A stretch of 58,471 nt of DNA from Prochlorococcus sp. AG-409-O23. GTDB lineage: Bacteria; Cyanobacteriota; Cyanobacteriia; PCC-6307; Cyanobiaceae. The notes beneath the pieces are model-generated. The model saw only the letters and a list, made by a program, of their open reading frames with translations, did no database searches and was not told the origin of the DNA. The DNA lies in contig QCKL01000007.1 in NCBI GenBank assembly GCA_003215355.1, positions 1-58,471 of the forward strand, read 5' to 3'. Shown piece by piece: positions 56,956 to 58,471 of the stretch. Numbering within the stretch: the stretch's first letter is position 1; each line of letters opens with the position of its first letter. The position numbers were made by a program, and so were the translations under genes.

Positions 56956-58119
56956 TTGAATATTCAACTCGGTCGTTCCAAGTTTGTTCGCAGGGCCTAC
57001 GGGATCGATGAGATTGCCCTGGTTCCTGGAGGTCGAACTGTTGACCCCCAAGTCACTGATACAAAGTGGCAAATCGGTGGGATCGAGAGAAAAATCCCCA
57101 TCATTGCCAGTGCAATGGATGGTGTCGTTGATGTAGGAATGGCAGTTGAGCTCTCAAAACTTGGTGCTCTGGGCGTTTTAAATCTTGAAGGTATTCAAAC
57201 GCGCTACGAAGAGACAGCTGAAGTACTTAATCAAATCTCATCAGTTGCAAAAGATAATTTCGTGCCACTTATGCAAGAAATTTATAGCCAACCAATAAAG
57301 CAGGAATTAATTACCAAAAGGATCAAAGAGATAAAGGCCCAGGGAGGTATTGCAGCAGTAAGTGGTACCCCTGCTGCAGCCATCCGTTTTAAAGAGACTC
57401 TTACTCAAGCTGGTGCGGATCTTTTCTTTGTTCAAGCCACAGTTGTATCAACTGAGCACATTGGGCCTCAAGGCCAAGAAAGCCTAGATCTCAAGGATCT
57501 TTGCAAAAGCATTGGGATACCTGTAGCAATTGGAAACTGCGTTACCTATGAAGTCGCAATTGAGCTAATGCGTGCTGGAGCCTCAGGTGTCATGGTTGGC
57601 ATAGGTCCTGGGGCCGCATGTACTTCTAGGGGGGTACTCGGAGTTGGCATACCTCAAGCCACCGCAATAGCAGATTGTGCAGCTGCACGCGATGACTATG
57701 AGAGAGAAAGTGGAAGATATGTACCAGTAATCGCTGATGGTGGCATTGTCACAGGTGGTGACATCTGCAAATGCATAGCCTGTGGAGCTGATTCAGTAAT
57801 GATCGGGTCTCCAATAGCTAGAGCGATAGAGGCACCTGGTAATGGATTTCACTGGGGTATGGCGACACCCAGCCCAGTTCTTCCCCGAGGAACAAGAATC
57901 AAAGTGGGATCGACTGGCACTATTAAAGAAATCCTCCTAGGCCCCGCTCGTTTAGACGATGGAACCCACAACCTTTTGGGTGCAATCAAAACCTCAATGG
58001 GCACCCTTGGGGCCAAATCAATAAAGGAGATGCAAGGGGTTGAGATAGTTGTAGCCCCATCACTTCTCACCGAAGGCAAGGTTTATCAAAAGGCTCAACA
58101 ACTTGGTATGGGGAAATAA
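56956..58119 (+). CDS. guaB: IMP dehydrogenase/GMP reductase family protein without CBS domains (GuaB3-like)
   Basis: A 387-residue TIM-barrel protein. The substrate-binding loop with the catalytic Cys is [15 protein letters not shown] near residues 214-228; the flavin/IMP-type [10 protein letters not shown] and [10 protein letters not shown] follow. The start region [20 protein letters not shown] is typical. No CBS pair is inserted, so it is shorter than standard IMPDH (about 490) and belongs to the GuaB3-like class. The start is TTG 56956. Its location ahead of yfr1 and trxA is conserved in marine cyanobacteria. Confidence 0.93.
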
Positions 58120-58182
58120 AGATCCTTTTTCAAGCCAACGCTTTCTGATTACTTGCTTCACAAGCGTTAGTATCTAAAGGTG

Positions 58183-58241
58183 AGGGCTTTTTAGCCCACA
58201 CACTCCTCACACCACCTTGCCCGAGACGCTCGGGCTTTTTG
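58183..58241 (+). ncRNA. yfr1: Yfr1 small regulatory RNA
   Basis: Between guaB and trxA lies a 5' stem GGGC/GCCC (58184-58187, 58194-58197), then the single-stranded block ACTCCTCACACCAC (58202-58215), the ultraconserved core of Yfr1, then the terminator stem. In Prochlorococcus MED4, Yfr1 maps to the same guaB-trxA gap, is very abundant, and pairs through this core with mRNAs of outer membrane porins. Upstream TATCTA (58171-58176) and TTACTT (58149-58154) are a plausible promoter with 16-base spacing. The 5' end is estimated. Confidence 0.9.
58219..58240 (+). terminator. Intrinsic terminator of Yfr1
   Basis: GCCCGAG (58219-58225) and CTCGGGC (58229-58235) form a perfect 7-bp GC-rich stem with a 3-base loop, followed by TTTTT. 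This is the best intrinsic terminator in the window and forms the 3' stem of Yfr1. Confidence 0.93.
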
Positions 58242-58344
58242 TCTTCACTTTTTGCGACCGTCACATTTCATACTGCTGATGTCACTAAAGACTGATTTCG
58301 GCAAAATCGGTTGCTACATTTCCCCGAGATAACCTCCCTTAGGT

Positions 58345-58471
58345 ATGTCAAGCGCTGCTGCAGTCACTGATTCCTCATTTGAGCAGGAAGTTCTTCAGAG
58401 CGACGTACCGGTTCTCGTAGATTTCTGGGCTCCCTGGTGTGGTCCATGCAGGATGGTTGCACCAATTGTCG
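58345..58471 (+). CDS. trxA: Thioredoxin, 5' part only
   Basis: Protein disulfide reductase that carries light-driven redox signals to enzymes. The visible 42 residues begin [16 protein letters not shown] and include the active site [15 protein letters not shown] with the Cys pair. The window ends inside the gene, so the rest cannot be judged. ATG 58345 is preceded by TTAGGT. Confidence 0.95.

Follow-up and report, generated by a model that had tools for sequence, protein, structure and literature searches.

A yfr1 small RNA gene between guaB and trxA in Prochlorococcus sp. AG-409-O23, and Yfr10-type RNAs with the same core in the same genome

Yfr1 is a small regulatory RNA of nearly all cyanobacteria. 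Its actions have been described in strain MED4, where Yfr2 counteracts the repression that Yfr1 exerts on a porin leader fusion and where binding of ppa is abolished when UCCU in the Yfr1 core is changed to AAAA (PMC6778093), and in Nostoc, where Yfr1 has 11 target mRNAs, many of them envelope-related (PMC6974561). The gene order guaB-yfr1-trxA has been tabulated for most cyanobacteria (PMC2190773, Table 2). We analyzed a candidate copy at the end of a 58,471-nt stretch of DNA (the window), which is the whole of contig C7. The original prediction had recognized Yfr1 here by sequence, structure, and location, and had proposed a search with the Rfam covariance model as a check. This search (Infernal) gave a significant match to the Rfam Yfr1 model, RF01116, on the forward strand at 58180-58238, spanning model positions 1-59 of 59, scoring 58.7 bits against a gathering cut-off of 38 bits (E = 4.3e-9 over the window). 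When 57700-58471 was scanned with every Rfam family at a permissive threshold, this match alone was returned. The features of the locus are as follows.

56956-58119, forward strand: guaB (IMP dehydrogenase family), a 387-aa open reading frame (PF00478, E = 1.6e-48)
58168-58173, forward strand: TAGTAT, a -10-like element of the putative yfr1 promoter, ending 6 nt before 58180
58180-58240, forward strand: yfr1, a gene for a small RNA of some 61 nt with predicted ends; full-length RF01116 match, sole copy in the genome
58180-58201, forward strand: 5' hairpin of 8 bp with a 1x1 mismatch (A58183.A58198) and a UUUU loop, from the fold and base-pair probabilities
58202-58212, forward strand: ultraconserved core ACUCCUCACAC (the undecamer), predicted to be unpaired (probability 0.93-1.00) and near-invariant in a 34-row alignment
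58219-58240, forward strand: intrinsic terminator with a 7-bp stem (GCCCGAG/CUCGGGC), an ACG loop, and a T run at 58236-58240, from the fold and compensatory changes in the stem
58345-58471, forward strand: trxA (thioredoxin; PF00085, E = 1.6e-14 over 42 aa), truncated where the contig ends

The full-length model match, the fold, and the guaB/trxA synteny all agree, with the PF00478 gene upstream and the PF00085 gene, cut short because the window is the whole contig, downstream. The locus is yfr1, and it is the only copy detected by the RF01116 scan of the 1.38-Mb, 69%-complete assembly. Compared by GuaB, the nearest named relatives are genomes of marine Prochlorococcus and Synechococcus, most of them with 73-84% identity, and yfr1 lies directly downstream of guaB in most relatives. 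RF01116 matches were found in 336 of 400 genomes of the same family, and in 234 of the 251 with a completeness of 90% or more.

When folded from 58180, the RNA adopts a predicted structure of (((.(((((....))))).))), 17 open bases, (((((((...))))))), and the T run, at -25.2 kcal/mol; dinucleotide shuffles averaged -11.7 kcal/mol (z = -5.6), and none of 200 was as good. The sequence ACTCCTCACACCAC occupies 58202-58215; downstream of it come a G+C-rich hairpin of 7 bp (58219-58235) and T58236-58240. The intact, unpaired core of the original prediction is thus borne out, ACUCCUCACAC having an unpaired probability of at least 0.93 throughout, as is its intrinsic terminator. The predicted open stretch that holds the undecamer (58202-58218) is 17 nt long, where published Yfr1 RNAs have 16-20 nt; the 3' hairpin with its TTTTT falls within the 6-9 bp, G+C-rich stem and U tail of the family. 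The predicted ends would give a length of about 61 nt, where the family range is 54-69 nt. Among 34 aligned Yfr1 sequences, 7 of the 12 consensus pairs of the hairpins show double changes. Four high-light Prochlorococcus Yfr1 genes (L084, L090, L091, and L094) carry GCTCCTCACAC, in which the first base of the undecamer is changed from A to G; the "perfectly" conserved undecamer therefore tolerates this substitution.

Since yfr1 lies upstream of trxA in 27 of 31 genomes (PMC2190773), the two hairpins might be regarded as a trxA leader or attenuator that controls thioredoxin in cis. We consider this exceedingly improbable: the terminator ends about 105 nt ahead of the trxA start at 58345, the conserved core is unpaired and plays no role in alternative structures, yfr1 stands apart from trxA in some genomes (PMC2190773, Table 2), and Yfr1 has been reported to act in trans (PMC6778093, PMC6974561).

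The 5' hairpin had been described as a 4-bp stem with a 6-base loop. This is only the inner part of an 8-bp hairpin with a UUUU tetraloop; because reading had started 3 nt late, at 58183, the outer three pairs were lost. An 8-bp stem with one mismatch is within the family range, as Yfr1 5' stems are described as 6-10 bp long and may contain a single bulge or internal loop (Voss et al., PMC2190773). The mismatch occupies the fourth position of the stem, which 33 of 40 distinct hairpins from relatives leave unpaired, with eight letter combinations; these relatives were chosen because positions 1-3 and 5-7 pair, and one with an ambiguous start (L017) was counted in two registers. Position 8, for comparison, is paired in 35 of 39 related hairpins. 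In the 34-row alignment, position 4 is open in 24 of the 25 rows with intact flanking pairs. The fourth position thus seems to be kept open while its letters are not conserved, a pattern that suggests a selected internal loop. High-light Prochlorococcus Yfr1 has a perfect 6-bp stem (AUGGGG/CCCCAU), and the outer stem pair differs between the mismatch-stem group and high-light Prochlorococcus, G-C versus A-U. We know of no earlier report of this open position, our literature search not having been exhaustive.

TAGTAT ends 6 nt before 58180, and the printed MED4 Yfr1 sequence starts directly with its hairpin (PMC2190773); we therefore predict the 5' end of the window RNA at about 58180. The start at 58183 given in the original prediction should accordingly be moved, as both the RF01116 match and the 5' hairpin begin 3 nt earlier. 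Of 71 distinct upstream regions, that of the window among them, 55 have a -10-like hexamer at the corresponding place (agreement with TATAAT in four or more of six bases, inside a narrow range of spacings), mostly with 6-nt spacing; approximately 37% of shuffled upstream sequences also contain such a hexamer, and relatedness makes the 55 of 71 less than independent. In strains related to MED4, TATTAT or TATCAT stands 5-6 nt ahead of the first base of the hairpin. No canonical -35 element was found upstream of yfr1 in the window.

These data bear on whether the guaB mRNA instead ends in this region, with the hairpins forming the guaB terminator region and the small RNA being a processed 3' fragment. 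Indeed, yfr1 begins about 60 nt past the guaB stop codon on the same strand, and no further terminator was found between the two. However, in most relatives the distance between the -10-like element and the hairpin is nearly fixed, the core is near-invariant while spacer and loops vary, and yfr1 lies away from guaB in several lineages (PMC2190773, Table 2), which makes a guaB 3' fragment very unlikely. We conclude that the window almost certainly contains a bona fide yfr1, with a putative promoter of its own after guaB, running from about 58180 to a terminator near 58240, both ends being predicted from sequence elements. Protein-only annotation is thereby supplied with an RNA gene and its predicted ends.

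The proposed mode of action of the window RNA follows that of Yfr1 in studied strains. The two flanking hairpins would protect the RNA and keep the core ACUCCUCACAC, with its anti-Shine-Dalgarno-like CUCCU, single-stranded; the core would base-pair with mRNA leaders (in studied strains, those of outer-membrane porins and of further envelope or metabolic genes), usually repressing translation; and RNAs of the Yfr2 family, with a complementary GUGAGGAGU-type sequence near the 5' end, would bind the same core and so relieve repression. We regard this scheme, an open core that pairs with leaders, blocks translation, and is titrated by Yfr2, as probable. The genome encodes three Yfr2/Cyano-1-type RNAs, two of them above the cut-off and the third below it (33.2 bits). 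RNAduplex, which ignores intramolecular structure, was uninformative for Yfr1 and Yfr2, and co-folding with dinucleotide shuffles was used instead. The predicted pairing energies of the Yfr1 core with the three RNAs were -13.5, -15.5, and -12.1 kcal/mol, and for each of them 0 of 200 shuffles was as good; replacement of UCCU by AAAA in the core weakened the predicted pairing to between -3.4 and -6.8 kcal/mol. The modeling thus points to Yfr1-Yfr2 pairing in this genome.

Repression of targets by the window Yfr1 is inferred by analogy with the studied strains. The porin leaders named as candidates in the original prediction are in line with the MED4 literature. The sole OprB porin found in the genome is cut at a contig start, its leader lying beyond the contig end; a search of the genome for SLH domains gave no match, and no ppa was detected in the assembly, which is 69% complete. 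The argJ leader paired with Yfr1 at -4.7 kcal/mol with one choice of start codon and -7.2 kcal/mol with another, hardly better than 45 background leaders, which reached -10.1 kcal/mol at best with a median of -3.1 kcal/mol and whose range includes both values. A genome search for the pattern GTGAGGAG-N(3-12)-ATG gave six matches at four places, compared with one in a reversed control. As target candidates these are unconvincing, three of the four places starting only very short frames; the remaining one precedes a 225-aa open reading frame.

The undecamer occurs in three further exact copies in the genome, all of them in Yfr10-type RNA genes.

Contig C1, 113854-113913, reverse strand: Yfr10-type small RNA gene (L111), Yfr1 core in a hairpin loop
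Contig C3, 74920-74980, reverse strand: Yfr10-type small RNA gene (L112), Yfr1 core in a hairpin loop
Contig C21, 4871-4931, reverse strand: Yfr10-type small RNA gene (L114), Yfr1 core in a hairpin loop

In all three, a hairpin (ACGACA...UGUCG[UG]) surrounds the core, and the terminator behind it has a conserved CUCGAUGAGG loop region; these terminators have a structured loop and were overlooked by a simple terminator finder, but are visible in the consensus fold. Yfr10, detected experimentally in SS120, has likewise been described as carrying its core in a hairpin loop (PMC6778093). As the core motif is common to both, the window locus could in principle be of Yfr10 type as well. There is next to no chance of this, because the window core lies between two hairpins and not in a loop atop a stem, the arrangement described for Yfr10 (PMC6778093), the terminators differ, and RF01116 matches the window copy only.

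The Yfr10-type copies gave no match to any Rfam 15 family. A covariance model built from 32 Yfr10-type copies (R1) matches 59 of 400 family genomes, with several copies in some. On contig C21 (4766-4931, reverse strand), the Yfr10-type gene immediately precedes a Yfr2 gene of the same orientation; in MED4, a Yfr10-type gene upstream of Yfr2 and a joint precursor have been reported (PMC2518516). The 13-mer CCAACGCTTTCTG, at 58135-58147 upstream of yfr1, recurs upstream of this C21 Yfr10-type gene and occurs in none of the other loci compared.

Yfr10-type RNAs were found in 29 of 63 family genomes without a Yfr1 match (a set derived by elimination from the RF01116 list of 400, whose tally gives 64) versus 29 of 336 with one; the Fisher p of 1e-11 is no evidence of substitution, because the genomes are strongly related, many belonging to one genus, and some are incomplete. 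Shared ancestry alone could be the source of the contrast. That a conserved multi-copy Yfr10-type RNA takes over upon loss of Yfr1 is a tentative idea, and we hold it to be rather doubtful. Neither RF01116 nor R1 matches the genome G024 or genomes of genus g9 (e.g., G008), all of them largely complete; a locus in G024 (L198) has the core with a degenerate-looking Yfr1-like flank. The R1 model of this Rfam-unmatched RNA is the more useful by-product of our analysis and worth following over the yfr1 locus, as the RNA may help to explain the life of SS120-like strains without Yfr1.

The window Yfr1 is an ordinary ortholog of an already well-known RNA. It shares with Yfr1 of MED4 and Synechococcus WH 8102 (RF01116) its predicted size, two hairpins, the ACUCCUCACAC core, and the terminator, as well as the guaB-yfr1-trxA order and the -10 spacing, the latter being the same also in high-light Prochlorococcus yfr1 genes. 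Its 8-bp stem with the A.A mismatch resembles that of Synechococcus-like relatives, unlike the perfect 6-bp stem of high-light Prochlorococcus. Yfr10/Yfr18 of Prochlorococcus and Yfr10 of SS120 have the same undecamer core but carry it in the loop of a single hairpin and in another synteny, and the three copies here lack an RF01116 match. The Yfr2 family (RF01701, Cyano-1) belongs to the same network and carries the complement (GUGAGGAGU type), and is therefore a binding partner of Yfr1 and not a homologue. The Yfr1, Yfr2, and Yfr10 genes of the MED4 network are all present in this genome.
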